From the IMG/VR virus record IMGVR_UViG_3300000101_000104, positions 1-29,055 of that record: a DNA stretch of 29,055 nt; one strand, written 5' to 3'. The notes beneath the pieces are model-generated. The model worked only from the letters and a program-made list of their open reading frames with translations. It ran no database searches and was not told where the DNA came from. Both the position numbers and the translations under genes were made by a program. This document shows, piece after piece, positions 1,343 through 26,005 of this stretch (positions are counted from its first letter, which is position 1; each line of letters begins with the position of its first letter). The DNA comes from a virus.

Positions 1343-1351
1343 ATAAATATA
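1343..1351 (-). promoter_or_regulatory. Candidate late promoter motif (TATATTTAT) on the minus strand
   Basis: Read on the minus strand the sequence is TATATTTAT, 16 bases before the ATG at 1326 and just ahead of its AGGAGG. The same motif, at similar distances, precedes structural operons on the + strand. Finding it correctly oriented before the only reversed gene supports a real promoter element. Confidence 0.55.
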
Positions 1352-1369
1352 AAATAAACATCGAAACAG

Positions 1370-1398
1370 TTGCTTATTCGAACCTTTCTTCTTATATT
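1370..1398 (+). promoter_or_regulatory. Early sigma70-like promoter, tandem copy 1
   Basis: TTGCTT (1370-1375), a 17-base spacer and TATATT (1393-1398). It shares CGAAyCTTTCTTCT in the spacer with the next copy 92 bases downstream, so the two look like a duplication. It points toward the small-gene cassette at 1520. The 1327-1519 region between divergent genes holds this promoter pair and the reversed late motif. Confidence 0.65.
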
Positions 1399-1461
1399 TA
1401 AGTATTAGAAAAAAGTTATAGGAGTGGGTTCAAATAAAATAAAAAAAAAGTATACAAATAG

Positions 1462-1490
1462 TTGCCTCCCCGAATCTTTCTTCTTATATT
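1462..1490 (+). promoter_or_regulatory. Early sigma70-like promoter, tandem copy 2
   Basis: TTGCCT (1462-1467), a 17-base spacer and TATATT (1485-1490), 29 bases before the ATG at 1520. The element is preceded by AG, as in all five members of this promoter family in the window, and the -10 is preceded by a T (TTATATT). Confidence 0.7.
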
Positions 1491-1519
1491 AAGGTATATT
1501 AATCAAAACAGTTAAAGTC

Positions 1520-1990
1520 ATGTCAAAGACTACCGCAACACCAATCTTCCAATTCGGAATCGAAATCACTAAACCATTTTCATCTGCAATGTACGCTCAT
1601 AACGATAAAGTATCTAATGCTATGAAGATTAGTATTAAGAATGCTGCAACAGAGATTTGGAATAAAAGAGCTTACATTGACTGGGAGTTAGAAGAATGGG
1701 AGACTCTTAAAGAGGATACATTTGAAACATTCACTATTGATAAGTTTCAAAGAACAATCTGTCACTACGGTATTGGTGCAGGCTTTACTGTATTAGATGT
1801 ATTCAATGAGATTCATAAAGCTGTTGAAGATGCAGAAAATTGGAGTATCCACGAGATGTATCAAGAGTTATATGATTTAGGAGCTGTTCCTAAACTGACT
1901 GAAGGTATGGTTGGTTTTTATAAGAAAGGTAGAGAGTCAAAAACTCCTTACTGGAATGATAATGGTTTAGCAAAAAGTATTAACAACTAA
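1520..1990 (+). CDS. Early hypothetical protein, 156 aa
   Basis: I do not recognise a family. The protein is soluble and mildly acidic, with several aromatic-rich segments: IDWELEEWETLKEDTF (about 53-68), a central TICHYGIGAGFTVLDVFNEIHKA, and a C-terminal PYWND. No signal peptide, membrane helix or cysteine cluster is visible. It is the first gene after two tandem early promoters and is followed closely by four further small genes, so it is probably expressed soon after infection. Many such small early phage genes act on host proteins, but nothing here shows a specific role. The ATG lacks a clear Shine-Dalgarno (AGTTAAAGTC upstream). The coding call is strong from length and context. Confidence 0.8.
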   Translation: MSKTTATPIFQFGIEITKPFSSAMYAHNDKVSNAMKISIKNAATEIWNKRAYIDWELEEWETLKEDTFETFTIDKFQRTICHYGIGAGFTVLDVFNEIHKAVEDAENWSIHEMYQELYDLGAVPKLTEGMVGFYKKGRESKTPYWNDNGLAKSINN

Positions 1991-2000
1991 TCTATATATT

Positions 2001-2261
2001 ATGAACGCATCATTAATGATTCGCATCGCGTCGCACCTCCGCGTTATTGAAGTGCCAATGCTACTAATCTTTATTGCATTATTACTACGCATGACAGACA
2101 GCTTATTCTACTCTAACTTAGTAGTACTTTACGCAATCGTTAGACTATTTATTAACATACGTTTTAAGATGAGTAAAGATAAGTTACAGCAAGCAATCTT
2201 AAACCATATTGATGCTATAGTTGAAGATATGGAAGAGGAGGATAAGAATGAGCTTTCTTAA
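2001..2261 (+). CDS. Small membrane protein, 86 aa
   Basis: The N-terminal half is strongly hydrophobic (about 16-52: VIEVPMLLIFIALLLRM, then FYSNLVVLYAIVRLFI), fitting two membrane helices. The C-terminal tail is charged and helical (KMSKDKLQQAI, then DAIVEDMEEEDKNE), probably cytoplasmic. No family recognised. It starts ten bases after the previous stop without a visible ribosome binding site, and its 3' end overlaps the next gene by 14 bases, suggesting translational coupling within the early cassette. An early phage membrane protein could serve in superinfection exclusion or envelope alteration, but that is speculation. Confidence 0.7.
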   Translation: MNASLMIRIASHLRVIEVPMLLIFIALLLRMTDSLFYSNLVVLYAIVRLFINIRFKMSKDKLQQAILNHIDAIVEDMEEEDKNELS

Positions 2262-2466
2262 GCGACACATTAGTAAAGAGCAATTAATAAGTATTTATAT
2301 AGAGTCAGGTATTGAAGGTGTTAAAACGCTTCTAAGAGGGGCAGATGCACTATTCTACGACGACCTATTCAGCGGTACAGTAATTGATATTTATCACGGA
2401 GAAGATATGATGTTTGACACGTGGAGAGATATTGAGCAATTAATAATAAACGAACTACCTAATTAA
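2248..2466 (+). CDS. Early hypothetical protein, 72 aa
   Basis: The start is the ATG at 2248, preceded by GAGGAGGATAAGA, the best Shine-Dalgarno in this cassette; a TTG further upstream in frame (2221) is less likely. The site sits inside the end of the previous gene, so the two are probably coupled. The product (MSFLKRHISKEQLISIYIES, ending IIINELPN-like) is acidic overall and alpha-helical looking, with LLRGADALFYDDLFSGT in the middle. No motif or family recognised, and no membrane segment or cysteine pair. It is the third gene of the early cassette. Confidence 0.7.
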   Translation: MSFLKRHISKEQLISIYIESGIEGVKTLLRGADALFYDDLFSGTVIDIYHGEDMMFDTWRDIEQLIINELPN

Positions 2467-2468
2467 CT

Positions 2469-2699
2469 ATGTATTTAAACGATCGTAAAATGTCATTAGA
2501 GGATCTAGAACGATTCACAGATTCATTAATAGGATGTCTAATAGATAATCTGTACGATACATTAGTTAATGAAGGTGTACAATCAGTGTATCCAGATGAT
2601 GAGTATAATCAAGAAAAGTTACTTAGAAAGATGGAAGAGCACTATGTTAGTACTGAGCAATATGAGAAATGTGCTGTATTAGCAAAACTACGTAAGTAA
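2469..2699 (+). CDS. Early hypothetical protein with a UVR-like C-terminal helix, 76 aa
   Basis: The protein is acidic and helical. Its last 20 or so residues (EEHYVSTEQYEKCAVLAKLR) resemble the UVR motif of UvrB/UvrC, in which a Y-E-x-A-A-x-L-R-D pattern forms a helical hairpin for protein contact. Here the motif is cut short at its end, so the similarity may be superficial. It begins two bases after the previous stop, with no clear ribosome binding site, which suits coupled translation. No catalytic features are seen. It is the fourth gene of the early cassette; function unknown. Confidence 0.65.
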   Translation: MYLNDRKMSLEDLERFTDSLIGCLIDNLYDTLVNEGVQSVYPDDEYNQEKLLRKMEEHYVSTEQYEKCAVLAKLRK

Positions 2700-2736
2700 T
2701 CAATTTAATTTTTATAAACAATAAATCACTTTTATT

Positions 2737-3015
2737 ATGGCTGAAAAAGCACAAAAATTCGAAAACAATCGTTCAAAGTTTAATCCTGCGAAGTATGGAA
2801 GAGTATGGAATTCTATATCATTCAAACATATGTGGAATCGCGTACCTGTAGGTGAAGCAAAGCAACCTATTATTGGTAAATTGCTTATTGCAGGAAAGGA
2901 GGTGGAGTTAACATTTACTGAATGTAGTAAATTAATTGAAACTCTAGAAGATGCTAAGTACTCTTTTAATGTTGGTACACGAATGGGTAGACTAGATAAT
3001 GGGTGGAAGATTTAA
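2737..3015 (+). CDS. Early hypothetical protein, 92 aa
   Basis: A basic protein with a mixed fold: NRSKFNPAKYGRVWN near the start, a probable beta pair (PIIGKLLIAGKEVELTF), then a helical part (ECSKLIETLEDAKYSFNVG). The hydrophobic-polar pattern after residue 47 looks like a small beta-strand-plus-helix domain. No known family is recognised. The stop codon lies within the loop of the terminator that closes the early cassette, so this is its last gene. A short AT-rich spacer (2700-2736) without a strong Shine-Dalgarno separates it from the gene before. Confidence 0.75.
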   Translation: MAEKAQKFENNRSKFNPAKYGRVWNSISFKHMWNRVPVGEAKQPIIGKLLIAGKEVELTFTECSKLIETLEDAKYSFNVGTRMGRLDNGWKI

Positions 3016-3028
3016 TTCCACCCTTTTT
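3001..3028 (+). terminator. Rho-independent terminator closing the early cassette
   Basis: A perfect 8-bp stem, GGGTGGAA (3001-3008) with TTCCACCC (3016-3023), a seven-base loop and a run of five T. The 5' arm is inside the last codons of the preceding gene, so termination is placed immediately after it. The next early promoter starts 24 bases downstream. Confidence 0.9.
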
Positions 3029-3051
3029 CTTTAAATTAATTATGTAAACAG

Positions 3052-3080
3052 TTGATTCTTTGGTAAAAATTTATTATATT
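3052..3080 (+). promoter_or_regulatory. Early sigma70-like promoter
   Basis: TTGATT (3052-3057), a 17-base spacer and TATATT (3075-3080), preceded by CAG as in the other copies. It would give a leader of about 70 bases before the ATG at 3156, containing the hairpin at 3095-3120. Confidence 0.7.
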
Positions 3081-3094
3081 TCAACCTAATTAAA

Positions 3095-3120
3095 ATTGTT
3101 TACAAAGATTGTAAATCAAT
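3095..3120 (+). promoter_or_regulatory. Inverted repeat in the leader of the 3156 gene
   Basis: ATTGTTTACAA (3095-3105) pairs with TTGTAAA (3109-3115) and, after one bulged T, CAAT (3117-3120), around an AGA loop. No T-run follows, so it is not a standard terminator. Placed about 10-35 bases after the predicted transcription start, it could be an operator or an RNA hairpin. Confidence 0.45.
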
Positions 3121-3155
3121 TAATAAAGTATTTAAAATAAATTAGGAAAGAAATT

Positions 3156-3392
3156 ATGGTATTAACAGGGATATTTATACTCGGTGCTATTTTTGGTGCT
3201 ATATTATATAGAATATATACTAACACTCAACGCATTAATAGTAATGTAAGAGAGGTATATTTAAAGAAACATATATCAAAACTGGAAGGTGATGCGAAGC
3301 AAAAAAGAAATAAAACATCTAACAAATCTAAGCGACGATATGTTAAAAAAGGTGGAGCAAGCGGATCAATTAAAGGATCTAGCAAGTCGTAA
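3156..3392 (+). CDS. Single-helix membrane protein with a basic tail, 78 aa
   Basis: The ATG at 3156 follows AGGAAAG. Residues 2-20 (VLTGIFILGAIFGAILYRI) form one membrane helix, with the start outside or buried and a long cytoplasmic tail expected. The tail is very basic (KQKRNKTSNKSKRRYVKKGG) and ends in a Gly/Ser-rich segment. No family recognised. The last 101 bases overlap the next gene in another frame, so the basic tail may partly reflect constraint from that frame. It is the first gene behind its own early promoter and a leader hairpin. Confidence 0.6.
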   Translation: MVLTGIFILGAIFGAILYRIYTNTQRINSNVREVYLKKHISKLEGDAKQKRNKTSNKSKRRYVKKGGASGSIKGSSKS

Positions 3393-3705
3393 TCCTGAAG
3401 AAGCAAGTCGGTTAAATACAATATTAGATACTTTTATGAACCCGGGTTCTAATATTGATAGAAAAGAGAAACTCTATAAAAAGATAAACTCGTTAACTAA
3501 ACTTATATCTAAGAATATCGATACTGTAAAGCGTAGCGGTACATCGCAATTTGATTGGTTAGAGTATCATAGAGATAATAACTTTGTGTTTAGTATAAAA
3601 TCACGTATTGCTTCAACAGGTGTTATAAGAGATTCTGATTTAAATGATATGAATGAATTCTATAAAAAACATATCAGGTTAGATAAACTTTTCAACAGTA
3701 ATTAG
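3292..3705 (+). CDS. Hypothetical helical protein, 137 aa, overlapping its upstream neighbour
   Basis: I take the ATG at 3292 (just after GGAAGGTG); a GTG at 3289 is also possible. The protein is basic and helical: charged segments at 1-30 (KKEIKHLTNLSDDMLKKVEQ) and 55-75 (DRKEKLYKKINSLTKLI), then a C-terminal part with FDWLEYHRDNNFVF. No family recognised. A later in-frame Met in the DDML segment (at about 3340) would shorten the overlap but lies past the Shine-Dalgarno-like GGAAGG. Either this is a true long overlap or one of the starts is wrong. A late-promoter-like ATATTTAT lies right after its stop. Confidence 0.7.
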   Translation: MRSKKEIKHLTNLSDDMLKKVEQADQLKDLASRNPEEASRLNTILDTFMNPGSNIDRKEKLYKKINSLTKLISKNIDTVKRSGTSQFDWLEYHRDNNFVFSIKSRIASTGVIRDSDLNDMNEFYKKHIRLDKLFNSN

Positions 3706-3713
3706 ATATTTAT
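3706..3713 (+). promoter_or_regulatory. Candidate late promoter (ATATTTAT), weaker match
   Basis: GATATTTATTAATGA, lacking the first T of the TATATTTAT consensus, lies 17 bases before the ATG at 3731. Its distance matches the motif before 7279 and that on the minus strand. Confidence 0.35.
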
Positions 3714-3730
3714 TAATGAAGGAATAACTT

Positions 3731-4252
3731 ATGGATACGCAGAGTAATATACAACCGTTTTGTCTTTTAAATGGTAAATTGCAAGAATCGTTATTTGATT
3801 ATAATGAGGATGAGATAGATGCTTTTCATAAAGCTGTTACTCCTGACGTGTTACATGAAGTTTATGATGCTGTAGAAGAAGAGTATAACATTCAGACTTC
3901 ATCAAAGGAAGCGGTAGCGGGAGCAGAAGTTGTTACGAAATATTTAAACACATTATCTTCAGACGAGTTAGAGGTGTTTAGTACATACTTAACTCAAGAA
4001 CTTAACGCATCAGTGACTAGCTCAGTGCAGAATAATACGTTATTAGATACTCATTCTATAGATTATTCATCACCTAGAGTAGATATGCTAGAAGGATATA
4101 TTGCTATTAGCTCGTCAAACCTTCAAGCTTTAGAGAAGTTTAGAAATAAAGTGACTGGATCAGGTAGTATTCAGTGGGAACATAGAATTAAAAAGCATGG
4201 TGATGTAACTATTCATAGCTATGTATTTAATATAAAGGAAGATAGTAAATAA
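3731..4252 (+). CDS. Hypothetical protein, 173 aa
   Basis: The ATG follows GAAGGAATAACTT. The product is acidic in its first two-thirds (EDEIDAFHKAVTPDVLHEVY, EVYDAVEEEYNI) and then ends in a likely beta-hairpin (SIQWEHRIKKHGDVTIHSYV). A Ser/Thr/Asn-rich linker lies near 95-115. No family recognised, and no membrane segment or cysteine motif. A weak late-type motif precedes it, so it may be a minor virion or assembly protein, but this is inference. Its stop codon TAA shares two bases with the first arm of the structured RNA element that follows. Confidence 0.75.
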   Translation: MDTQSNIQPFCLLNGKLQESLFDYNEDEIDAFHKAVTPDVLHEVYDAVEEEYNIQTSSKEAVAGAEVVTKYLNTLSSDELEVFSTYLTQELNASVTSSVQNNTLLDTHSIDYSSPRVDMLEGYIAISSSNLQALEKFRNKVTGSGSIQWEHRIKKHGDVTIHSYVFNIKEDSK

Positions 4253-4333
4253 TACAGGCAGGTTTTTTATCCGGTATCGGATAATTGTTTACCAACCAAG
4301 GTTATAATTAAGTAGTAAAATCCTGTCTGTATT
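4251..4333 (+). ncRNA. Structured intergenic RNA element (long closing stem with internal hairpin)
   Basis: Bases 4251-4262 pair with 4322-4333 over 12 bp including one G-U, then after a bulged T 4263-4266 pair with 4317-4320. Inside is a perfect 7-bp hairpin, TTATCCG (4267-4273) with CGGATAA (4278-4284) and a GTAT loop. The remaining 32 bases (ACCAACCAAGGT and flanks) show only weak pairing. A short T-rich tail (TTATT) follows. It could be an unusual terminator, a processing site, a small RNA or a leader for the next gene. It does not fold as a tRNA. Confidence 0.5.
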
Positions 4334-4357
4334 TTATTAACTGGTATATATATTAAT

Positions 4358-4825
4358 ATGAAGAGTAAGATTCAATATTACACCGAGGTTAAAAATGGTG
4401 TTAGGTTTATGGAGTGTAGATGTTGTGGTACTATGGTAGAAGTTACAAGTAGAACGACATCTATAAAATGTGATGTATGTGTTAGAGAGGATTATGATAA
4501 AGATTTTCCATTCTCACAACTTACAACTTATAAATCCAGTGGACGTCCTCGAGGCTGGGCTTTTATGAAGGAATATGTTGATAAAGATGGAAACGTATTT
4601 CATAAAGGTGAAGAGCAACCCAAGTTAAGAGGTACACTAAAACCTACAGTTATGAAAGTTAAACCTAAGAAGCCTAAACTTAGTAAGGGGCAGAAAGCTC
4701 AACTCTATAATGAGACATTATCAGAGATCCATAAACTTAAAAAGCAGTTACATAAAGCGAAGTTTAAGAAAGATCAAAAACAAATCACATCACAGATTAA
4801 AAAGTTACAGAAAAAAGTGAGATAG
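4358..4825 (+). CDS. Zinc-ribbon protein with a basic coiled-coil tail, 155 aa
   Basis: Cysteines C20, C23 and C38, C41 (ECRCCGTM and KCDVC) form two CxxC knuckles typical of a zinc ribbon, with C22 extra. A SGRPRGWAFMKEYVDKDGNV segment (61-80) follows; GRPRGW resembles a minor-groove-contacting AT-hook-like core, then a beta-hairpin. The C-terminal half is lysine-rich and helical (HKLKKQLHKAKFKKDQKQ), probably a coiled coil. A DNA- or RNA-binding role is likely by composition, but no partner is visible. It starts at ATG 4358 within the AT-rich sequence TATATATATTAATATG and has no clear Shine-Dalgarno. The next early promoter overlaps its stop region. Confidence 0.75.
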   Translation: MKSKIQYYTEVKNGVRFMECRCCGTMVEVTSRTTSIKCDVCVREDYDKDFPFSQLTTYKSSGRPRGWAFMKEYVDKDGNVFHKGEEQPKLRGTLKPTVMKVKPKKPKLSKGQKAQLYNETLSEIHKLKKQLHKAKFKKDQKQITSQIKKLQKKVR

Positions 4826-4854
4826 TTGCTTGTATTAAATTTATTTCTTATATT
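4826..4854 (+). promoter_or_regulatory. Early sigma70-like promoter of the late-sigma operon
   Basis: TTGCTT (4826-4831), a 17-base spacer and TATATT (4849-4854), starting right after the stop of the zinc-ribbon gene. It is 27 bases before the ATG at 4882, which has TAGGAGAAGTA. It is the only promoter I see before the gp55-like gene. Confidence 0.7.
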
Positions 4855-4881
4855 GTAAGAATAAATAAGATAGGAGAAGTA

Positions 4882-5109
4882 ATGAATAAACTTATTTTTG
4901 AGAGATGTAATACTGTAGAGTCACGAACAGTAAAAGAGCCTACTCGAATAGTATTTGAACTCGAGCCGAGTTTAACTATAGAGGAGTTCAAGATTGCATG
5001 TAAGCGTTTAGCTCACGCTATGGGATATAGTGATAGTAGTATAAAGAAAGAATTCGGTGTTGATACAGAGAAAGGTAATCCAGCACAATTAAATTTATTA
5101 TTTGGTTAA
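4882..5109 (+). CDS. Hypothetical protein, 75 aa
   Basis: The start has a good Shine-Dalgarno (TAGGAGAAGTA). The product has an initial beta-like part (LIFERCNTVESRTVKEPTRI, then VFELEPSLT) and a helix (IEEFKIACKRLAHAMGYSDS), ending with IKKEFGVD and a hydrophobic LNLLFG. The middle-to-end resembles a small ferredoxin-like or helix-turn fold, but no known family is recognised. It leads the operon that contains the HD hydrolase and the late sigma factor; its stop is one base before the next ATG, so the pair is tightly coupled. Confidence 0.75.
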   Translation: MNKLIFERCNTVESRTVKEPTRIVFELEPSLTIEEFKIACKRLAHAMGYSDSSIKKEFGVDTEKGNPAQLNLLFG

Positions 5110-5110
5110 T

Positions 5111-5866
5111 ATGTTAGACGAAAAAGATATAGCCCTTAATTGGGAAAAGTTAGTAGGAGTTATTAATACTGAATTTACTGGTGAGCGAAAAGACTCTCTA
5201 TTAAAGATGTATGACTTCTTTCAAGATAGAATGATATTGATGCCTGCATCTAGTTTTGAGCATTATCATAACTGTTTTGCTGGTGGGTATGTAGATCACG
5301 TGTTACGAGTTATTGAATGCGCAGATAGTGTATACACTAATTGGCAAGCACTTGGATCAACATGTACAGGATATACACGAGAAGAGTTAATGTTCGCTGC
5401 TCTTAACCATGATTTAGGTAAGACGGGTACTCAAGAGTTTGAGATGTATAGACCTAATCCATCAGATTGGCATAGAAAGAATCAAGGTAAGATATATGAG
5501 ATAAACCCTGATATACCATTTATGTCTGTACCAGATAGATCATTATTACTATTGCAAGAGTTTGGAATCAAGTTCACGCAAAATGAAATGATGGGCATTA
5601 AGCTTCATGATGGTATGTATGATGATGCGAATAAGCCATACTTCGTAGCATTTAGACCAGAGTCTAGAATGCGTACTAATTTACCTATAATACTACATCA
5701 CGCAGATCATATGGCGTCACAGATTGAGTATGAGCGATGGAAGGAATCTAGTAACACTATTGTTACAGAAACTAAACGTGCATCACGAAAAGTTAGTAGT
5801 AAAACGGTAACTAACTCATCAGAATCAGCAACCGATCTATTTAAAGATTTATTTGGAGATTCATGA
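5111..5866 (+). CDS. HD-domain metal-dependent phosphohydrolase, 251 aa
   Basis: I use ATG 5111, since the upstream TTG (5102) overlaps the previous gene. HD-superfamily metal ligands are visible: H63 in GGYVDHVLRV, the paired H100-D101 in LNHDLGK, H166-D167 (KLHDGMYDD), and H196-H197/D199 (HHADHM). Enzymes of this kind hydrolyse phosphomonoesters or phosphodiesters of nucleotides, including dNTP/dNMP substrates and cyclic nucleotides; the substrate here cannot be told from sequence. HD phosphohydrolases are found in other marine T4-like phages and are often linked with nucleotide salvage, which would fit with ThyX. The C-terminus (about 215-251) is Ser/Thr/Lys-rich and probably disordered. 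It overlaps the next gene by four bases (ATGA). Confidence 0.85.
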   Translation: MLDEKDIALNWEKLVGVINTEFTGERKDSLLKMYDFFQDRMILMPASSFEHYHNCFAGGYVDHVLRVIECADSVYTNWQALGSTCTGYTREELMFAALNHDLGKTGTQEFEMYRPNPSDWHRKNQGKIYEINPDIPFMSVPDRSLLLLQEFGIKFTQNEMMGIKLHDGMYDDANKPYFVAFRPESRMRTNLPIILHHADHMASQIEYERWKESSNTIVTETKRASRKVSSKTVTNSSESATDLFKDLFGDS

Positions 5867-6144
5867 ATTACGTGATAGGTATACTTATAGGTTTATTAGT
5901 AATAGGTGTCTACGCTATTATTAATTTAATGCGTAAGATTGATAGAGTTGAAGATGCTTATATTGATGCATCTAATATTAATGAAACATTATACGGAGCT
6001 TTACGCGAGATGGTTGTAAAGTTAAGAGAGATAGATGATAAAGGGTCTTTCGAGTCTGATGATGAAGTAGGTGCAACATTTAAACAATTATATGAAACAG
6101 TTAAAGCAGTCGATGAAGTGTTCATCACTAAAAACGAAAAATAG
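5863..6144 (+). CDS. Membrane-anchored helical protein, 93 aa
   Basis: Starts in the ATGA overlap with the HD gene. Residues 3-22 (YVIGILIGLLVIGVYAIINL) make an N-terminal membrane anchor; the rest is charged and helical (MRKIDRVEDAYIDASN, LREMVVKLREID), probably a cytoplasmic coiled coil. No family recognised. It lies directly before the late sigma factor gene, with only one base between its stop and the chosen sigma start. It might tether a complex to the membrane, but there is no direct evidence. Confidence 0.75.
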   Translation: MNYVIGILIGLLVIGVYAIINLMRKIDRVEDAYIDASNINETLYGALREMVVKLREIDDKGSFESDDEVGATFKQLYETVKAVDEVFITKNEK

Positions 6145-6145
6145 T

Positions 6146-6919
6146 ATGTCTCCAGTAGAGCAATTTTATAAAGTTATCGAGCAGAGGCGTGAAGATGAGA
6201 TTAAGCAAAAGCTTATCGAGCAAGTTGAAGGTGTAAAGAAGAAGCGCGGTCGACCTAGAAAAAATAAAATGTACTTCACGCAAGATACAGAAGATGCGAT
6301 TATTGCATATAATAATGAATCAAGTAATGCACTGCGTAATAAAGTGTTTAATGATTTTATATATAAGCCATTATTTAAGATGGCAGAGAATCTAATTCAT
6401 AGATATAAATTTTACCACTTTGACGCACCGACTGTTGATGTTCAATATGAAGTCATCGCTTTTATACTTGAAAAGCTTCCTAAGTATACTCAAGAGAAAG
6501 GTAAAGCATTTTCTTACTTTAGTATTGTAGCTAAGAATTACTTGATACAGAATAACTACAAGCACTATAATCGTAAAAAAGCAAAAGCTCCTGTGTTAGA
6601 GATAGATACTAATAGAAGTGTTGTTAATGAAGTAGTGCGTGAAGAAGTATTATCTGAGACGCAAGACTTCTTTCATTTATTTATAACACATTGTACAGAT
6701 AATATTGATACAATTATTAAGTATAAGAGAGATGTACCAGTAGCGTATGCATTATTAGAGATATTTACAAATTGTCATAACATAGAGACGTATAATAAAA
6801 AAGCTTTATATATTATGGTTCGGGAAATGGTTGATGTGAAAACACAGTATATAACCCGGGTTGTTAATATATTAAAAGACGAGTATAGTCGACTATATTC
6901 GTTATATAGAAGTAGATAG
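6146..6919 (+). CDS. 55: gp55-like late-transcription sigma factor with an AT-hook
   Basis: I start at ATG 6146 (257 residues), as the frame upstream to 6071 lies inside the previous gene. Residues about 96-150 (QYEVIAFILEKLPKY, then AFSYFSIVAKNYLIQNNYKH and YNRKKA) match the sigma region-2 core of T4 gp55 (E-x-I-A-x-x-x, aromatic-rich helix, N-x-x-x-x-x-K-K). Such proteins bind core RNA polymerase and read the late promoter -10 element; in T4 they work with gp33 and the sliding clamp. Unlike T4 gp55 (185 residues), this one has an N-terminal extension with KKKRGRPRK (31-39), an AT-hook core. The C-terminal 100 residues are unassigned. It is expressed from the early promoter at 4826. Confidence 0.75.
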   Translation: MSPVEQFYKVIEQRREDEIKQKLIEQVEGVKKKRGRPRKNKMYFTQDTEDAIIAYNNESSNALRNKVFNDFIYKPLFKMAENLIHRYKFYHFDAPTVDVQYEVIAFILEKLPKYTQEKGKAFSYFSIVAKNYLIQNNYKHYNRKKAKAPVLEIDTNRSVVNEVVREEVLSETQDFFHLFITHCTDNIDTIIKYKRDVPVAYALLEIFTNCHNIETYNKKALYIMVREMVDVKTQYITRVVNILKDEYSRLYSLYRSR

Positions 6920-6935
6920 TGCACGATTTACTTCA

Positions 6936-6949
6936 TGGCAATATTGCCA
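6936..6949. repeat. 14-bp perfect palindrome between gp55 and a membrane-protein gene
   Basis: TGGCAATATTGCCA is fully self-complementary without a loop, so it suits a dimeric DNA-binding protein better than an RNA hairpin. It is located 28 bases before the ATG at 6978. No promoter hexamers are obvious around it. Confidence 0.4.
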
Positions 6950-6977
6950 CTTAATAATTAACTAAAAGGAGATAATT

Positions 6978-7202
6978 ATGGATTCAGTAATTAAGCAAGT
7001 CTCAGGATTTTTCACAGGTTTAACAGCATTATTTTTAGCAGTTATACCAGTATTAGTTCTTTGGACGATCTTAACTGGTGGTGCTGTATTCGGAATGGAT
7101 GTAGCAGCTAACTTAACAACTTTCATTACACGATTAGGTGATAGTGGATTTGTAGGTTTAGTGGTACTAGTATTACTAGCATCATTCTTTACGAAGAAGT
7201 AG
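6978..7202 (+). CDS. Small two-helix membrane protein, 74 aa (holin-like candidate)
   Basis: The ATG has AAAAGGAGATAATT, the best ribosome binding site in the region, which suggests high expression. Two hydrophobic segments (about 11-38: FFTGLTALFLAVIPVLVLW, then ILTGGAVFG; and 57-71: GFVGLVVLVLLASFF) are joined by a short polar loop (DVAANLTTFITRLGDS), ending in a FTKK tail. Size and layout fit a class II holin, which would form membrane lesions to start lysis. Small two-helix proteins of this kind also occur as minor virion or unknown proteins in T4-like marine phages. No lysin gene is adjacent (the hydrolase fragment is about 7 kb away). A strong terminator follows its stop. Confidence 0.75.
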   Translation: MDSVIKQVSGFFTGLTALFLAVIPVLVLWTILTGGAVFGMDVAANLTTFITRLGDSGFVGLVVLVLLASFFTKK

Positions 7203-7222
7203 TTTTTGAATTACAATAAAGG

Positions 7223-7249
7223 AAAAGCGCTTTTATAGCGCTTTTTTTT
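7223..7249 (+). terminator. Rho-independent terminator before the baseplate block
   Basis: A perfect 9-bp stem AAAAGCGCT (7223-7231) with AGCGCTTTT (7237-7245), TTTAT loop, then T to 7249. It separates the sigma-factor operon from the late block. The late-promoter motif starts six bases further on. Confidence 0.93.
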
Positions 7250-7254
7250 ATTTG

Positions 7255-7263
7255 TATATTTAT
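7255..7263 (+). promoter_or_regulatory. Candidate late promoter TATATTTAT (baseplate block)
   Basis: TATATTTAT, followed by ATATAAGG, which leads directly into the AAGGAG Shine-Dalgarno of the ATG at 7279. The motif ends 15 bases before the start codon. It is placed between a terminator and a run of structural genes. Confidence 0.6.
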
Positions 7264-7278
7264 ATATAAGGAGTAATT

Positions 7279-7632
7279 ATGAGTGAAGAGTCAGAAGAGG
7301 TATTTAGTGGTAAGTCGTTTAAAAACTTGCTAGAAGATATATATAACAATTCTAAGAAGAAGGAAGCGCAAATCCAAATTCTTATTACTGAACTTAAACC
7401 TATGATTAAGAATATCGGTGATGCGATAATTATCGTTCCATTAATAAAGGATTATATGGAGATAGCAGTAAAGAATGATGAAGCATTAATTAAGATGGCT
7501 GCTATAGTTCAGAAAGCACAGAGTAGAGTTAGTAGTGGAGGTAGCGATGGCTTACTATTAACTGAGCAAGAGAAGCGTCAATTAATGGAAGAAGTTGAAA
7601 AGGTAGGTGAGAGTGTCGAGGTACGGAAGTAA
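7279..7632 (+). CDS. Hypothetical helical protein, 117 aa, first gene of the late block
   Basis: Strong AAGGAG site. The protein is almost all helix: KSFKNLLEDIYNNSKKKEAQ (about 12-31), QILITELKPMIKNIGDAII, then a C-terminal acidic segment after SSGGSDG. It has no membrane segment or cysteine motif. Its position at the head of the baseplate operon suggests a small virion or assembly protein, as is common for T4-like phages before the gp5-type gene, but I do not recognise a family. Its last codons overlap the start of the next gene by about 20-26 bases. Confidence 0.75.
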   Translation: MSEESEEVFSGKSFKNLLEDIYNNSKKKEAQIQILITELKPMIKNIGDAIIIVPLIKDYMEIAVKNDEALIKMAAIVQKAQSRVSSGGSDGLLLTEQEKRQLMEEVEKVGESVEVRK

Positions 7633-8638
7633 TTATAAATCAAAATCTGTATTTGAGCGTAATCAATCTACAATATCAGATACACCTATTACTACACCTC
7701 TTACTGTAGGATCTGTAATTGATGTAGTGTCACAAAATAATAAGAGTATAGGTGATATACTAGTAACTATAAAAAAAGAAGATGGTACTTTTAAGAATGA
7801 AGTAGCATCTCCTATGTCACCTCACTTTATATCACTACCGCTACCAAACGAACGCGTTACATTAATGCAAGATACATTATCTAGTAAATGGTATTATTTA
7901 ACATCTATACGAAATGGTGGATATGTGAATCATATGGGTAATGCTATTAAGAGGGTATTTGAGAGAGATACATCTACGCTATATACAGGTAAAACATTTG
8001 CACCTAACCCGTCACTGCGAACATTAAATTTGTATGAAGGAGATACAATCCTGCAAGGTAGGACTGGTCAAAGTATACGGTTTGGTAATAAGCAAGAAAG
8101 TACACAGACTCCATGGAGTATAGATGGTGAAGAAGGTACACCTATAATTACTATTAGATCAGGTGTAACACAAATTGAAGATCTAAATACAGATTTTTCT
8201 TCAATATATTTAACAGCTGGTCAATCATTACCAATAATATTAAAGAGCGCATTACCAGTAGAGTACACTAGACCAGATTTATACGATAATAATCAAATTA
8301 TAATAACTAGTGATAGGTTGACAATGTACACACGAGAAGATGATATAGTATTATCAAGTGCTACTAATATAGGATTATCTACATCTAAATGGGCAATTGA
8401 TATATCTACATTATTAGATCAAATCGCGTTATTATGTGATCACGTTATTACATTATCAAAGCATATAAGTGATCAAGGCCTATATTCTGCAACATCTACT
8501 ATGATATCGAGTGCACCTGGATCACCTACAAGCCCATCGAATAATGCACCGCAATTTAACACGATATTTAATGAAGCAGCATCTGTTAGGAGCCAATTGC
8601 AGCAGATAAAAAATAATATAGATAATATGAAACAGTAA
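7607..8638 (+). CDS. gp5-like baseplate hub / OB-fold protein
   Basis: No ATG is available near the start; GTG 7607 or GTG 7613 are the options, both inside the previous gene and near AGGTAGGTGA. The N-terminal half looks like an OB-fold of the gp5/spike type: the segment VGSVIDVVS, then PLPNERVTLMQDT, then a switch to GDTILQGRTGQSIRFG (around 145-160), the turn-rich part seen in gp5-like hub proteins. Later residues (IIITSDRLTMYTREDDIVLS) continue as beta strands, and the end (LQQIKNNIDNMKQ) is helical. No lysozyme domain is visible, unlike T4 gp5. It sits before gp25 and gp6, the expected gene order. Role: central baseplate spike hub, by inference. Confidence 0.55.
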   Translation: MRVSRYGSNYKSKSVFERNQSTISDTPITTPLTVGSVIDVVSQNNKSIGDILVTIKKEDGTFKNEVASPMSPHFISLPLPNERVTLMQDTLSSKWYYLTSIRNGGYVNHMGNAIKRVFERDTSTLYTGKTFAPNPSLRTLNLYEGDTILQGRTGQSIRFGNKQESTQTPWSIDGEEGTPIITIRSGVTQIEDLNTDFSSIYLTAGQSLPIILKSALPVEYTRPDLYDNNQIIITSDRLTMYTREDDIVLSSATNIGLSTSKWAIDISTLLDQIALLCDHVITLSKHISDQGLYSATSTMISSAPGSPTSPSNNAPQFNTIFNEAASVRSQLQQIKNNIDNMKQ

Positions 8639-8649
8639 TACAAGTAGCG

Positions 8650-8658
8650 TATATTTAT
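8650..8658 (+). promoter_or_regulatory. Candidate late promoter TATATTTAT (gp25-gp6 operon)
   Basis: GTATATTTATTATATGA begins 12 bases after the previous stop. The motif ends 29 bases before the ATG at 8688, which has ATAGGAGATTAT. A motif in a clean intergenic gap, ahead of the gp25/gp6 run, supports it. Confidence 0.6.
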
Positions 8659-8687
8659 TATATGATAGTATTATTATAGGAGATTAT

Positions 8688-9107: not shown

Positions 9108-9119
9108 TAAAAGTACTAT

Positions 9120-9524: not shown

Positions 9525-9526
9525 TT

Positions 9527-11407: not shown

Positions 11408-11418
11408 GGTAATGTGAT

Positions 11419-12498: not shown

Positions 12499-12500
12499 AT

Positions 12501-17875: not shown

Positions 17876-17897
17876 CAGTTGATTATTTTAAAAGATG

Positions 17898-17906
17898 TAT
17901 ATTTAT
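17898..17906 (+). promoter_or_regulatory. Candidate late promoter TATATTTAT (tail-adhesin operon)
   Basis: GTATATTTATAATATA ends 31 bases before the ATG at 17938, in the 62-base gap after the giant gene. AACAGTTGATT (TTGATT at 17879-17884) resembles the early -35 element, but 17 bases further there is TTTATA rather than TATATT. Confidence 0.6.
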
Positions 17907-17937
17907 AATATATAACAAAACATGGAGTTGATATAAA

Positions 17938-18591: not shown

Positions 18592-18607
18592 TAATAAGGG
18601 ATAGCAA

Positions 18608-19663: not shown

Positions 19664-19671
19664 AGGACAAT

Positions 19672-21462
19672 ATGTCTAGGCTTACCTATAAAGCACTTGA
19701 TCCTAAAAGATCATCTGTAATAGATTACACCGCGCATAAATCGTGGACTATTACGGATGAAACAGCAGCGAGTTTTGGTGTGAAAGTATTATCTGGATCA
19801 TACTCATCTGGTGAATTTAATGCTGCAACTGATCCTAAAACAGATGGATTCTACCAAACAGCTATATTCAACTCAATACAACATCTTTATTATAGTGATC
19901 CTAACAATACCACTATATCAAGCGATAGCGAATTCTTAAGCACACAAGAACGTGAATTATTATCATACGTTCAAGTATGGAGTATACCATCTGAGATATA
20001 TGGAAAGCGCATTAAACCTGGTAGTGTATATATTAATGCAGCAGAAGATTATTGGGATGATGGAGAAGGTAACTTATTTACTGAAACAGTATATGATAAA
20101 TCTGATTATAAAGATATTATACCTCCTCTACCTAAAAACTCGTATGTATATTTATCTTTTGATGAAGAGAGAGAGATCGCTGTTGGTAGTGAGATAGCTG
20201 ACAAATATAAGTTAAAATATCGTAGCTCTGTTCCTAAAAATGTTGAAGTTCGTAATGGTGTAATGGATTACGGTAGAAAGACAGGAACGCAAATTTATGC
20301 ACATCCATTTGAATATCGAGCTATTAAACTAAACGGTTCAGCATCATTAAGTTCAGGCTCAGAGAGTATTATTGAGTTAGTTGGTAGCAGGAATCCTTAC
20401 TCAAGTGATTGGGATAATGATTTCTGCATTAACATGTGGGTAAATATACCTCCATCACAGAGTGTATCTCAAAGCTATACAGGGCATTATAAAGGAAGTG
20501 ATAATATTAGAGGATTAGAAGCTCATACTGAAAACGTTATTGCATCTAGTCGAGGATTTATAAATAATCCGCAAGATGATAATATTACACCTTGGGAAAT
20601 ATCTATTGTAAATCATAGTGGTGATGCATCTGAAATTGGAAAGATATATGCTAGAAGGGGTAGATATGATAACATGCTATTGCTTTCATCAAGTAATGCA
20701 CAAAATATTGGCGGTGATGTATGGACTCATGTAATTTTTCAAAAAACAGGATCTAATATACAATTGATGGTTGGTAGCGGCTCTACAGATATATCTTCAC
20801 CTCCACAGAAAACATGGTCTACAGACACTATAACAGGTAGTATTATCTCAGCTATAGATCCTTTATTAAAATATGATACTAATACCAATGTAGATGTATG
20901 TATTGGAGCTAGGAGATCAGGGTTCAAGCAATGGAAGAGAGGAAGTAGTTATTACGATACTGTACCGTTCAATCCTGCATACACCTTACCGTTTTCTGGA
21001 TCAATCGATGAATTTGTAATATACAATAAAGCATTAGATACTGGTACTACTCAAACTATTGATAAAATTCATAATGACTCTACTAACCCAATTGTTGGGA
21101 ATATATTCTATAAACACGGTATAATAACTCTAACCAGCCCTTTTAAAGAAGGTACTACAGAAGCAACTGATAATTTTACTCTGACATTTTCTGGTTCACA
21201 TGATATTACAGCTCATTCTTATAGATGCGTTATTGAAGATGGTGAGTTTAATATGACGTTAAATCCAACAGCGCGTGAAGGATATAGTTTAAATAACCCT
21301 CATGCGCAATCATTTACAACTGGTTCTGATTTTTCACCCTACATTACTACAATTGGATTATATAATAATATGAAAGAACTTTTAGCTATAGGGAAGTTAG
21401 CACAGCCAGTAAAGAGTCCGCAAGATTTTGATATAACATTTGTAGTACAATTCGATACATAA
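19672..21462 (+). CDS. Virion structural protein with LamG/concanavalin-like domain, 596 aa
   Basis: The ATG has AAAGGACAAT. Residues about 215-460 look like a LamG-type jelly roll: YRAIKLNGSASLSSGSESII, then DFCINMWVNIPPSQ, VWTHVIFQKTGSNIQLMVG, and FSGSIDEFVIYNKALDTGTT. This is the typical set of strands with the final D-E-x-x-I-Y-N-x-A-L. Such domains bind polysaccharides or proteins, so this may be an adhesin for host surface glycans. The C-terminal 42 residues (555-596: YITTIGLYN, ELLAIGKLAQP) match the end of the previous protein. The next gene follows four bases later. Receptor binding is an inference. Confidence 0.75.
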   Translation: MSRLTYKALDPKRSSVIDYTAHKSWTITDETAASFGVKVLSGSYSSGEFNAATDPKTDGFYQTAIFNSIQHLYYSDPNNTTISSDSEFLSTQERELLSYVQVWSIPSEIYGKRIKPGSVYINAAEDYWDDGEGNLFTETVYDKSDYKDIIPPLPKNSYVYLSFDEEREIAVGSEIADKYKLKYRSSVPKNVEVRNGVMDYGRKTGTQIYAHPFEYRAIKLNGSASLSSGSESIIELVGSRNPYSSDWDNDFCINMWVNIPPSQSVSQSYTGHYKGSDNIRGLEAHTENVIASSRGFINNPQDDNITPWEISIVNHSGDASEIGKIYARRGRYDNMLLLSSSNAQNIGGDVWTHVIFQKTGSNIQLMVGSGSTDISSPPQKTWSTDTITGSIISAIDPLLKYDTNTNVDVCIGARRSGFKQWKRGSSYYDTVPFNPAYTLPFSGSIDEFVIYNKALDTGTTQTIDKIHNDSTNPIVGNIFYKHGIITLTSPFKEGTTEATDNFTLTFSGSHDITAHSYRCVIEDGEFNMTLNPTAREGYSLNNPHAQSFTTGSDFSPYITTIGLYNNMKELLAIGKLAQPVKSPQDFDITFVVQFDT

Positions 21463-21465
21463 TAT

Positions 21466-21906
21466 ATGAGTCATTGGTTATATAAAGGTGAAGCGTTTAC
21501 AGACGCACCAAACGAATATTTCGGTTTTGTTTATCTAATAAAAAACAAGAAAACAGGTAAGAAATACATCGGTCGAAAATATTTCGGTACAACTCGTCGT
21601 GTAAAAGTTAAAGGTAAAAAGCGTCGTAAGGTGATACGTAAAGAGTCAGATTGGGCTACATATCAAGGATCATCTAAATCACTGCAACAAGATATTAGTA
21701 GAATAGGTAAGAGGAATTTCGAGTTCACCATATTAATAATGGGAGAAACAAAAGGTCAAGTTAATTATCTTGAAGAAAACATCCACCATCGTTTCCACGT
21801 ATCTGCTAGCGATGATTTCTATAATGATTGTATTGGCCCAAGGAGATTTGCTAAGGTACGCTTTGATGAAAATGTAGCTAAAAAAATTAATGATATAGTT
21901 GTGTAA
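21466..21906 (+). CDS. GIY-YIG endonuclease-like protein, 146 aa
   Basis: A GIY-YIG core is visible in variant form: GFVYLI (20-25, standing for GIYxI), KKYIGRK (32-38, for YIG), an LQQDISRIGKRNFEF helix and strand (73-87), E103 (NYLEE; candidate metal-binding glutamate) and N120 (FYNDC). A very basic insert (VKVKGKKRRKVIRKESDW, 46-63) between strands probably contacts DNA. The family includes T4 endonuclease II (DenA, host-DNA degradation) and Seg-type homing nucleases; a free-standing single-domain protein of 146 residues is near DenA size (136). Which one applies is not resolved. It lies between the late structural genes and the primase. The primase's early promoter overlaps its last codons. 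Confidence 0.8.
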   Translation: MSHWLYKGEAFTDAPNEYFGFVYLIKNKKTGKKYIGRKYFGTTRRVKVKGKKRRKVIRKESDWATYQGSSKSLQQDISRIGKRNFEFTILIMGETKGQVNYLEENIHHRFHVSASDDFYNDCIGPRRFAKVRFDENVAKKINDIVV

Positions 21907-21927
21907 TCTTTAATTTTATCTTATATT
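21899..21927 (+). promoter_or_regulatory. Early sigma70-like promoter of the primase operon
   Basis: TTGTGT (21899-21904), a 17-base spacer and TATATT (21922-21927). It starts inside the last codons of the GIY-YIG gene. Only five bases separate the -10 from the primase ATG, so the transcript would start at or near the start codon. Confidence 0.6.
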
Positions 21928-21932
21928 AAGGC

Positions 21933-22844
21933 ATGGGATTATTAAGTATACTAGAGACCGTATTAGGTAGATCTAAAAAAACGTCAGGTAATAATGTTTC
22001 GTTCAAGTGCCCTTGCTGCAATCATTATAAACCTAAATTAGAGATTGATTTATCAACTCAATTCTGGCATTGCTGGGTTTGCAATGCTAAAGGACGTAAG
22101 TTATATACTCTATTCAAAAGAGCTAATGCATCTAAATCACAAATTGATGACTTGAATACAGAAGTAGGTAACTACGTACCTGTACGTGAAAAAGCTAATA
22201 CTCAATCAGTAGCACTACCGCCAGAGTTTCAATTAATACTTAACGGTAATAAGAATAATCCTGAATTTAGAAATGCGTTACACTACTTGAAAGGTAGAGG
22301 AATAACTAGAGAGGATATAGTTCGTTATAATATAGGTTACTGCGAAACTGGTGAATATAGTGGTATGATTATAATACCTAGCTATAATGATAATGGTATA
22401 CTAAATTTCTTCACCGGTAGATCGTATTATAAAGATGCAACCTTCAAGCATAAGAATCCTAAAGTTAGTAAAGATATTATAGGGTTTGAGTTATTGATAA
22501 ATTGGAATGAACCTATAACTATTGTTGAAGGAGCATTCGATGCTATAGCTGCTAAACGGAATGCTATACCATTATTTGGTAAAATAATATTAGATAAATT
22601 AAAATCTGCTTTAATAAGCAATAACGTTAAAACAATATATATAGCACTAGATACAGATGCAAGGAAAAAAGCTTTAGATATATGTCAATACTTAATCGAT
22701 AACGGTGTAGCAGTACATTTAATAGAGTTACAAGATAGCGATCCTAGTGATCTAGGGTATTCAGAATTTACAAAAATATATAATACAACTGGCCCATTAA
22801 CAGGTAGTGGGTTATTATTAAAACAAATGGGAATGATAATTTGA
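21933..22844 (+). CDS. 61: DNA primase (gp61-like), zinc-binding and TOPRIM domains
   Basis: 303 residues, near the size of T4 gp61 (342). An N-terminal zinc site is seen: C26-x2-C29 (KCPCC) and C47-x2-C50 (HCWVC). The TOPRIM domain contains IVEGAFDAIA with E199 and D203, then ALDTDARKKA with D240 and D242, the standard metal-binding acidic set, and DSDPSD near 268-273. The protein should make RNA primers for lagging-strand synthesis together with a gp41-type helicase not in the window. No other in-frame Met precedes the zinc site, so ATG 21933 must be used, or a downstream non-ATG. No Shine-Dalgarno is visible, in keeping with leaderless or coupled translation. The stop overlaps the next start (TTGA). 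Confidence 0.9.
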   Translation: MGLLSILETVLGRSKKTSGNNVSFKCPCCNHYKPKLEIDLSTQFWHCWVCNAKGRKLYTLFKRANASKSQIDDLNTEVGNYVPVREKANTQSVALPPEFQLILNGNKNNPEFRNALHYLKGRGITREDIVRYNIGYCETGEYSGMIIIPSYNDNGILNFFTGRSYYKDATFKHKNPKVSKDIIGFELLINWNEPITIVEGAFDAIAAKRNAIPLFGKIILDKLKSALISNNVKTIYIALDTDARKKALDICQYLIDNGVAVHLIELQDSDPSDLGYSEFTKIYNTTGPLTGSGLLLKQMGMII

Positions 22845-25800
22845 AAATACATAATATCAATGTCGGATTCGATAATCTTGATAAAATACTTCATGTCGCA
22901 GATATACATATACGAAACTATCAACGGCACGCTGAATATAAAGCTGTGTTTAAAGAGTTATATAAAGGTGTAGATACTCTACCAGAGAACGCTATTGTAT
23001 ATGTTGCAGGAGATATTGTACACAATAAAACAGATATATCACCAGAATTAATATCATTAACATCTGACTTTTTAAAGAATCTAGCAGATAGACGTCATAC
23101 GATAGTTATTACAGGTAATCATGATACCAACCTCAATAATACGAGTAGGTTAGATGCATTAACACCTATTATACAGAACTTAAACCATCCTAAATTACAT
23201 TACTTAAAAGATTCTGGTGTATACACTATAGCAAACGTACATTTTACTGTATTTAGTATATTTGATCCTCCATCCGAATTTATTAAAGCTAGTAGTTTTG
23301 ATGCACCTACTAAAATTGCATTATTTCATGGACCAGTACAATCCTCTAAAACAGATATAGGGTATGAGGTTACAGGTGAAGAGTATACCGCTAACCTGTT
23401 TAATGGATATGACTTATCACTATTAGGTGATATACATAAACGACAATACGTCGATAAAGCAAAAACTATATGCTACCCAGGATCACTTATACAACAGAAT
23501 TTCGGTGAAGCATTCAAACATCACGGATATGCTATATGGGATGTTGCAAAGCGTACTCCAATATATATAGATATATCAAACAAGTATGGATTCTACACAA
23601 TCGATGTTAAAGATGGTATATTACCTAACATTGATGATATACCAAAGCAACCTCGACTTCGTATCAGAACAACTAATACAACTGAAGCAGAGCTCAAGAG
23701 TATTATTAAAGATATAAAAAAGAAATGTCGTGCAAACGATATAATCACTATCAAGCAAGATAAAATAAAAGGTATAGCTACTACATCTAGAACCTTAACA
23801 CGCGATGTTAGAGATATAAATTATCAAAATAAGTTACTGCAAGATTATATTGAAAAGAATCACGATGTAGATACTACACTAATGCGCCAAGTTAAATCTA
23901 TTAATAAAACGCTCAACGATTCGTTACTTAATGAGAATATCACTAGAAACGTTACGTGGAAGATGAAGTCATTTGAGTTCTCTAATATGTTTAGTTACGG
24001 TGAAGGTAATACGATAAATTTTAGTAAAGCTAAAGATGTGATCGGATTATTTGCTCCTAACCATGCAGGTAAATCCGCTATACTCGATTCACTAGCGTTC
24101 TGTATATTTGATAGATGTAGTAGAGGTAAATCAGCTGCAGATATAATGAATAATACTAAAAATACATTTCACTGTAAACTTGAGTTAGAGATCGATGGTG
24201 TCGATTATTTTATAGAGAGAAAAGCAAAGCGTATACTAAAAGGGTGGCAGAAAGGTAAAGTACGTGTAGATGTAGATTTTTGGTATATGGATGAGGAAGG
24301 TGAAAAGATATCATTAAATGGAGAGCAGCGTCGAGATACTGATAAATCGATTCAAAGTTATTTAGGTGAGTACGACGACTTTATACTTACAGCATTATCT
24401 GTTCAAAACAATAATACAGGATTCATTGATAAGTCGCAGTTTGAAAAAAAAGATTTACTATCACAATTCCTAGATATTACAGTATTCGAACAATTGTACG
24501 CGCTAGCTAATGAAGAGATACGAGATGTGCAAGCTTTGTTAAAAGATTTCGGAAACACAGATTACTCTCAAGATATAATAGATAAAGAGAATGAGCTTGA
24601 AAAAAGCGAGCTCCAATATAAAATCCTTCAACAAGAGAAGGATCAAGTAGAGTTAGATATAAAGGTATGTAGTAAGGAAATACTCGATCTAACTAAGTCT
24701 TTACATAAGAAGATACCTTTAGATAATCTAGATGAGCTAGAGCGAGAGACACGATCTAACGAGTTGAAGATTCATGATATAGATAATAGATTACAATCAG
24801 ACGAAGATATTGCAAAACAAAATAAGCAAGCAGTTATAAAGTCAGAACAAATCGTATCGCAATATGAGTCGAGTGATTTAGAAGATCGATATGATGAGTA
24901 TAAAACATGTTCACGTAAATTACAATCTCTACATCAAACAAAAGAGATGTTAAAGAAAGACGTATTGCATAAACAGGAAAAGTTAGATGCAATAGGTCAA
25001 TTCGATCCTAACTGCTCATTCTGTAAAAACAATGATTTTGTTAAAACAGCTCATGAAACTAGAGATAGTTTAGAGCAAGATAAAGTCAAGGCTCGTGAAT
25101 TGATAGCATCTATAACTGAAAGTAAAGCACAGTTAGATAGCTATGCAGGTATAGAAGATGATATTATTAACCTTAATAATCAGAGAAATACTCTTGCAAA
25201 AATACAACGTGAGCGAGACGCAGGTAGAATAGCTTACTACCAAGCGAAAGAAGTTCGTGATAAGATAATTACACGCAATATAGAGTTACAAGTACTGATT
25301 GATAAGTACCATAGTAATGTACAAGCTATTGAAGAGAATAAAAGTATAAATAATGAAATCACTCTAAAAGAGCAAGAGCAAGAATCTTTAAAACACCTCC
25401 TTTCTACAATTGATGATAAGCGTCAATTATGTTATAGCGATATTAATGTATATAAGACAGATATTAAAAGTATACATAATCATATAGAGAAAGCACATAG
25501 CTTAGAAATTAAATTAAAAGCCTATGAATATTATTTAGATGCTATAAAAAGAGACGGTATACCATATGAGATTATATCAGACACCCTACCGTATATTCAA
25601 GAAGAAGTTAATAATATATTATCACAAGTTGTTGATTTCGAATTAGAGTTTGATGTAGATGGTAAGAATATACTGACGTATATAAAGTATAATAATCAAA
25701 CATGGTCGTTAGAGATGACGTCTGGTATGGAGAAGTTTATATCATCACTAGCTATTAGAGTTGCATTAATAAATATATCTAACCTACCTAGACCAACCTT

Positions 25801-25990
25801 CTTAGCAATTGATGAAGGATTTGGTAATTTAGATGCTAACAATATCAACTCTATGTCAATGTTATTTGATTACTTGAAAACGGAATTTGATTTTATATTA
25901 ATTATATCACATATTGATGTTATGAGAGATATGGTAGATGATGCTATCGAAATATCTAAACAACACAGTCTAAGTAATGTTATTTATTAG
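22841..25990 (+). CDS. 46/47: Fused gp47-gp46 (Mre11-Rad50/SbcDC) recombination nuclease-ATPase
   Basis: One 1049-residue polypeptide holds both T4 subunits. The N-terminal calcineurin-type nuclease (1-about 340) has D21-x-H23, G57-D58, G92-N-H-D95, H163 and G196-D-x-H199. The ATPase follows: Walker A APNHAGKS (405-412), long coiled coils (about 575-905) around a zinc-hook CxxC (C725, C728), a TSGME signature (960-964; canonical is LSGGE), Walker B and catalytic E992 (FLAIDEGFGNLD), and H1024. In T4 these act as separate proteins in double-strand end resection and host DNA degradation. The start is TTG 22841: no in-frame ATG precedes the first nuclease motif, and it overlaps the primase stop. 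Walker A has Ala where Gly is usual. Confidence 0.93.
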   Translation: MKIHNINVGFDNLDKILHVADIHIRNYQRHAEYKAVFKELYKGVDTLPENAIVYVAGDIVHNKTDISPELISLTSDFLKNLADRRHTIVITGNHDTNLNNTSRLDALTPIIQNLNHPKLHYLKDSGVYTIANVHFTVFSIFDPPSEFIKASSFDAPTKIALFHGPVQSSKTDIGYEVTGEEYTANLFNGYDLSLLGDIHKRQYVDKAKTICYPGSLIQQNFGEAFKHHGYAIWDVAKRTPIYIDISNKYGFYTIDVKDGILPNIDDIPKQPRLRIRTTNTTEAELKSIIKDIKKKCRANDIITIKQDKIKGIATTSRTLTRDVRDINYQNKLLQDYIEKNHDVDTTLMRQVKSINKTLNDSLLNENITRNVTWKMKSFEFSNMFSYGEGNTINFSKAKDVIGLFAPNHAGKSAILDSLAFCIFDRCSRGKSAADIMNNTKNTFHCKLELEIDGVDYFIERKAKRILKGWQKGKVRVDVDFWYMDEEGEKISLNGEQRRDTDKSIQSYLGEYDDFILTALSVQNNNTGFIDKSQFEKKDLLSQFLDITVFEQLYALANEEIRDVQALLKDFGNTDYSQDIIDKENELEKSELQYKILQQEKDQVELDIKVCSKEILDLTKSLHKKIPLDNLDELERETRSNELKIHDIDNRLQSDEDIAKQNKQAVIKSEQIVSQYESSDLEDRYDEYKTCSRKLQSLHQTKEMLKKDVLHKQEKLDAIGQFDPNCSFCKNNDFVKTAHETRDSLEQDKVKARELIASITESKAQLDSYAGIEDDIINLNNQRNTLAKIQRERDAGRIAYYQAKEVRDKIITRNIELQVLIDKYHSNVQAIEENKSINNEITLKEQEQESLKHLLSTIDDKRQLCYSDINVYKTDIKSIHNHIEKAHSLEIKLKAYEYYLDAIKRDGIPYEIISDTLPYIQEEVNNILSQVVDFELEFDVDGKNILTYIKYNNQTWSLEMTSGMEKFISSLAIRVALINISNLPRPTFLAIDEGFGNLDANNINSMSMLFDYLKTEFDFILIISHIDVMRDMVDDAIEISKQHSLSNVIY

Positions 25991-25996
25991 CAATCA

Positions 25997-26005
25997 TATA
26001 TTTAT
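25997..26005 (+). promoter_or_regulatory. Candidate late promoter TATATTTAT (fibre operon)
   Basis: ATCATATATTTATATAAGA lies just after the fused nuclease stop and ends 42 bases before ATG 26048, which has AGAGGTAAAT. It matches the switch from replication genes back to structural ones. Confidence 0.6.

Follow-up and report, generated by a model that had tools for sequence, protein, structure and literature searches.

A conserved ATATTTAT octamer as the probable single-element late promoter of a phage clade distantly related to T4

Late transcription in phage T4 depends on the gp55/gp33/gp45 system (reviewed in PMC2988020), and the sigma-A promoters of Bacteroidota have the form TTG ... TAnnTTTG (PMC9723704). 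In the Far-T4 phages, no core genes of T4 transcription regulation were detected (PMC4360716). Here, we analyzed a 29,055-base IMG/VR fragment of viral DNA (hereafter, the window) together with relatives found via its baseplate, SbcC/D-like, and 6146 proteins, whose public members are Flavobacterium phage immuto (NC_055915), "Microcystis" phage Mel-JY01 (PP395634), and the 484-kb LR756508. The cultured relatives share T4-type terminase, portal, and capsid genes with the Far-T4 phages (PMC4360716), and the first-listed terminase match outside the clade is Rhodothermus phage RM378, the Far-T4 reference, with cyanophages close behind, in what is a match list rather than a tree. The element described below has in common with T4 late promoters a single -10-type octamer, the lack of -35 conservation, an AT-rich downstream stretch, and virion genes as the next genes, whereas the octamer itself is ATATTTAT here and TATAAATA in T4. 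Because the test of the octamer, which is the defining feature, showed a different sequence, we do not class the element as a T4 late promoter proper. In the open-access literature, our coverage of which is incomplete, we found no published phage late promoter with ATATTTAT.

An initial annotation of the window had proposed a late promoter motif on the basis of six sites, and all six are present at the positions and in the orientation it gave. On the plus strand, TATATTTAT occurs at 7255-7263, directly 3' of a terminator-like GCGC hairpin with a T run that is seen in the sequence, 15 nt ahead of the gene at 7279; at 8650-8658, 29 nt ahead of gene 8688, the first of the gp25/gp6 baseplate operon; at 17898-17906, 31 nt ahead of gene 17938; and at 25997-26005, 42 nt ahead of gene 26048. 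The minus-strand copy (1343-1351) lies 16 nt ahead of the sole minus-strand gene (1018-1326), which encodes a small predicted periplasmic protein or lipoprotein with a DUF2279-like match under the Pfam cut-off. The sixth site, at 3706-3713 on the plus strand, reads GATATTTAT and carries the octamer ATATTTAT 17 nt ahead of gene 3731, so that the previously reported motif-to-start distances of 15 to 42 bases hold throughout. The true core of the motif is this octamer, usually preceded by T or G in the window's subclade. One further gap site, absent from the earlier list, is ATATTTAT at 926-933 (plus strand), 4 nt upstream of a 27-codon open reading frame (ORF; 938-1021) that resembles a single membrane span. 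A similar small ORF follows ATATTTAT at the identical 4-nt spacing in three relatives (L009, L106, and L111).

Counted over the whole window, TATATTTAT is a weak signal by itself, since its seven copies (five in gaps and two within genes, at 20147 on the plus and 25769 on the minus strand) compare with 3.6 expected from shuffling and 6 of 100 shuffles reach 7. The signal is placement, which the initial annotation had called hard to explain by chance: the 1,006 noncoding bases hold five copies in the sense orientation, compared with a mean of 0.23 after shuffling, and none of 2,000 shuffles reached five, while coding sequence holds one sense and one antisense copy with about one expected, so that after correction for composition the 9-mer is enriched in gaps and shows no excess in genes. 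For ATATTTAT, seven sense copies in the window's gaps compare with 0.58 in shuffled gaps. We then extended the count to related loci, with expectations for 8-mers taken from second-order Markov or dinucleotide models built from the same gaps; genes in unannotated relatives were called mechanically by script, which will have misplaced some starts. Pooled over 84 related IMG/VR loci, ATATTTAT occurs 98 times in the sense orientation in gaps (8.1 expected) and 12 times in antisense, and in coding sequence it shows no excess (109 copies versus 137 expected). Among 78 more distant loci, no gap 8-mer is more strongly over-represented (78 versus 8.5 expected, 7 antisense). The T4 octamer TATAAATA shows no sense excess in the gaps of the 84 loci (11 versus 9.7), and the departure from the T4 sequence noted in the initial annotation is common to the whole clade. 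As a control, the same gap-word method returned TATAAATA as the top word both in T4 (75-125 kb) and in cyanophage P-SSM4; in Tenacibaculum phage pT24, it returned TATATTTG. In 100 kb of the huge phage LR756508, gap words gave no clear motif and ATATTTAT is not clearly used, though a relative of the sigma candidate described below is present. Separately, the gaps of RM378 (L187, 30-80 kb) are enriched in TTATTTAA (10 versus 0.3), possibly a further late-promoter variant.

The orthologue map, in which ATATTTAT was scored gene by gene within 75 nt upstream, shows that the motif is bound to particular genes. For the six window genes that bear it, 52-100% of orthologues, and thus not all, have retained the motif: 42/52 for gene 7279, 48/67 for 8688, 22/28 for 17938, 3/3 for 26048, 11/21 for 3731, and 4/5 for the minus-strand gene. 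In the closest relatives, the same gaps hold the motif, including the one ahead of the minus-strand lipoprotein gene of L009. By comparison, operon-internal genes carry it in about 1% of cases (gp25, 1/91; gp6, 1/92) or in none (11419, 0/88; 5111, 0/42; 5863, 0/42; 18608, 0/24), and some relatives have it before other genes (1520, 4/10; 19672, 3/10). Immuto sites precede virion genes, namely those for terminase, tail sheath, tube, and baseplate hub, and Mel-JY01 sites lie at the tail tube gene and in the portal region. Judged by these gene functions, the motif-bearing genes are probably expressed late. Where orthologous sites lack ATATTTAT, ATAATTAT, which is its own reverse complement, often stands at the same place; in a 197-kb relative (G001, which contains locus L045), ATAATTAT occurs 19 times against 3.9 expected and ATATTTAT 11 times against 4.3.

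A profile built from 137 nonidentical sites shows one element, with almost no information around -35. Bases 10-15 nt upstream of the octamer and directly downstream of it are A+T rich (AT fraction, 0.80-0.94 at +8 to +13 counted from the octamer start), and 6 nt past the octamer, 90% of sites have a purine (A, 77%; G, 13%). Placed at -13 to -6, by analogy with T4, the octamer would make this purine the likely +1. The distance from octamer to start codon is variable, with a peak at 15-20 nt, and at some sites an ATG comes within 0-5 nt of the octamer, which leaves no room for a +1 six bases past it. At 926-933, such a +1 would land in the ATG of the small ORF, which may therefore be leaderless or start slightly earlier. 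In three loci (L119 at 4145, L126 at 3402, and L090 at 21660), ATATTTAT touches or nearly touches the ATG with which longer ORFs (158 and 493 amino acids) begin, which suggests either leaderless late messages or misplaced starts.

The same genomes contain a second promoter class. In immuto, gap sites of the form TTG-N20-TAnnTT show a sharp peak at a spacing of 20 (50 sites versus 2-7 at other spacings), and the class is also enriched in Mel-JY01 and in the window, with the consensus AAATAGTTG-N20-TATATT in the window's subclade. The window's TTG-N20-TATATT sites, all on the plus strand, lie at 1370-1398, at 1462-1490 ahead of gene 1520, at 3052-3080 ahead of gene 3156, at 4826-4854 ahead of gene 4882, and at 21899-21927 ahead of the primase-like gene 21933. 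Their form is that of Bacteroidota sigma-A promoters, and we read them on this basis as putative host-sigma, early-type promoters. Mel-JY01 is listed with the cyanobacterium Microcystis elabens as its host, yet its TTG-N20 sites carry TATATTTG, which is the -7 box of Bacteroidota; a member of the Bacteroidota growing in the same culture may be the real host. In the 197-kb relative (G001, comprising L196-L205), a second gap motif, CTTATCTTTAAGTATAATA, stands out strongly and is probably the early promoter, with CTTATCTTTA found 18 times against 0.1 expected. The fraction of Shine-Dalgarno-like starts is 0.44 in the window's subclade and 0.28 in Mel-JY01 compared with 0.02-0.04 in immuto, L045, and LR756508, so that the hosts may be very different, even with a late octamer that is for the most part common to all.

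TATATTTA is common to the late octamer and the -7 box, and one might ask whether the motif is merely this box in ordinary host sigma-A promoters that operate without any phage sigma. The likeness of TATATTTA to TAnnTTTG (PMC9723704) and the occurrence of TATATTTG in the gaps of pT24 and Mel-JY01 speak for this explanation, as do the few immuto ATATTTAT sites (2 of 17) that have both elements. However, only 3 of 95 ATATTTAT sites in the relatives have TTG at N20, yet TTG-N20 sites form a class of their own in these genomes; the corresponding comparison list for the window leaves out the site at 25998, apparently masked by a short spurious ORF that the lower ORF length limit of this comparison let in. 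Moreover, in register with the host box, the late element is TATATTTA without the final G, which is replaced by A-T, and without the upstream TTG, the profile showing no upstream element. We therefore consider the host sigma-A explanation distinctly unlikely. Still less probable, in our judgment very much so, is a nonpromoter signal (the site of a phage DNA-binding protein, or an RNA processing or translation signal) that stands before operons by coincidence: the motif is A+T rich, an AT-binding protein of T4 acts at some late promoters (PMC2988020), and a few sites adjoin start codons, but the strict orientation, the restriction to operon heads, the variable distance to the start codon, and the T4 and cyanophage controls all suit a promoter better. 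The idea that the sites are T4-type TATAAATA promoters on the opposite strand draws on antisense TATAAATA at 7257, 17900, and 25999; these are limited to sites with A as the next base, and the T-followed sites (8650, 3706, and the minus-strand site) lack them, the relatives conserve ATATTTAT with its reverse complement nearly absent upstream of orthologues, and transcription would head away from the genes, so that the antisense pattern and the orthologue map led us to reject this exceedingly improbable reading. Chance in an AT-rich background, with which only the modest whole-window count of 7 versus 3.6 agrees, has a negligible probability and was rejected on the gap shuffles, the coding controls, and the orthologue map.

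The window encodes a candidate sigma factor. The predicted gp55-like late sigma at 6146-6919 (plus strand) has an AT-hook-like RGRPRK stretch in the region of residues 34-39, a predicted sigma region 2 fold at residues 46-147, and a C-terminal helix-turn-helix (HTH)-like domain. Its counterpart in immuto is gp118 (78174-78872). Pfam and PHROGs searches with this protein gave no call, and a PDB sequence search using the sigma profile returned nothing meaningful. An AlphaFold2 model built from an alignment of 33 sequences (A1) has a pLDDT of 89, and its residues 46-147 superpose on region 2 of sigmaE, SigW, and SigK with 2.3-3.1 Å over 85-93 residues. Sigma factors make up nearly the whole list of structural matches; their Z scores of 7-9 are middling for helical folds, so that support for the region 2 fold is moderate. 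Comparison with T4-type gp55 by hhalign gave an E value of 0.024, or 0.0012 with the gp55 of P-SSM4 added, a weak match in which about 100 columns align colinearly. A further feature in common with T4 is the region 2 fold of a phage sigma, here predicted, whereas the window's protein is longer than gp55, with its C-terminal HTH-like domain and, in the window's subclade, the AT-hook-like stretch. The C-terminal 102 residues alone gave only generic helical or HTH matches and no specific sigma region 4 match, with which a sigma region 4 is still compatible. The window's protein has no hydrophobic clamp-binding tail at its C terminus. RGRPRK occurs in the window's subclade and is not found in this exact form in the other lineages, many of whose proteins terminate in short hydrophobic tails that, by sequence, loosely resemble the clamp tail of gp55. 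No sliding clamp (PF02916) scored over the Pfam cut-off in the relatives, a result compatible with a diverged clamp. The late motif is absent upstream of the sigma candidate's orthologues (0/27). In the region 2.4 stretch, almost all sigmas have NN, but those of L045 and L050, which pair with full support, have FI instead; the association of FI with ATAATTAT is a correlation only, as it concerns one lineage. Relatives of the sigma also occur in contigs of metagenome-assembled genomes (L188-L195), three of them in Flavobacteriales-type bins and the rest in archaeal or gammaproteobacterial bins, where they are probably misbinned phage.

Taken together, position, orientation, conservation among orthologues, the lack of a -35/-33 element, the virion genes of immuto, and a gene with a predicted sigma region 2 in the window support, in the main, the late-promoter reading of the initial annotation, and we consider it likely that ATATTTAT is the single-element late promoter of a phage clade distantly related to T4, read most likely by a divergent gp55-like sigma. 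According to this model, the octamer would be the sole recognition element, sitting about where TATAAATA sits in T4 and working with no upstream -35/-33 partner; the AT-rich stretch follows it, and transcription would probably start at the purine 6 nt on. The phage sigma encoded at 6146-6919 most likely takes over the host RNA polymerase and reads the octamer, presumably late in infection, and early-type genes would rely on the two-part TTG-N20-TATATT promoter, read by the main sigma of the host. It is tempting to speculate further that this sigma combines in a single polypeptide the parts that are divided in T4 between gp55 and gp33 (a region 2 core plus the C-terminal HTH-like domain), that in the window's subclade the AT-hook has replaced the clamp-binding tail and late transcription has been uncoupled from the replisome clamp, and that octamer and region 2.4 have shifted together in sister lineages; we regard this fuller scheme as rather unlikely.

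T4-type late promoters are usually sought as TATAAATA, and a different octamer common to a whole clade, together with a candidate sigma, provides a means of mapping the late operons and naming the regulator in many uncultivated phages. As a cultured phage that infects Flavobacterium sp. LMO8, immuto can be studied in the laboratory, and the ATAATTAT lineage, with its change from NN to FI in region 2.4, makes the specificity residues testable. The octamer and the sigma also address the reported absence of recognizable T4 transcription genes in Far-T4 phages (PMC4360716), a gap that they could fill.
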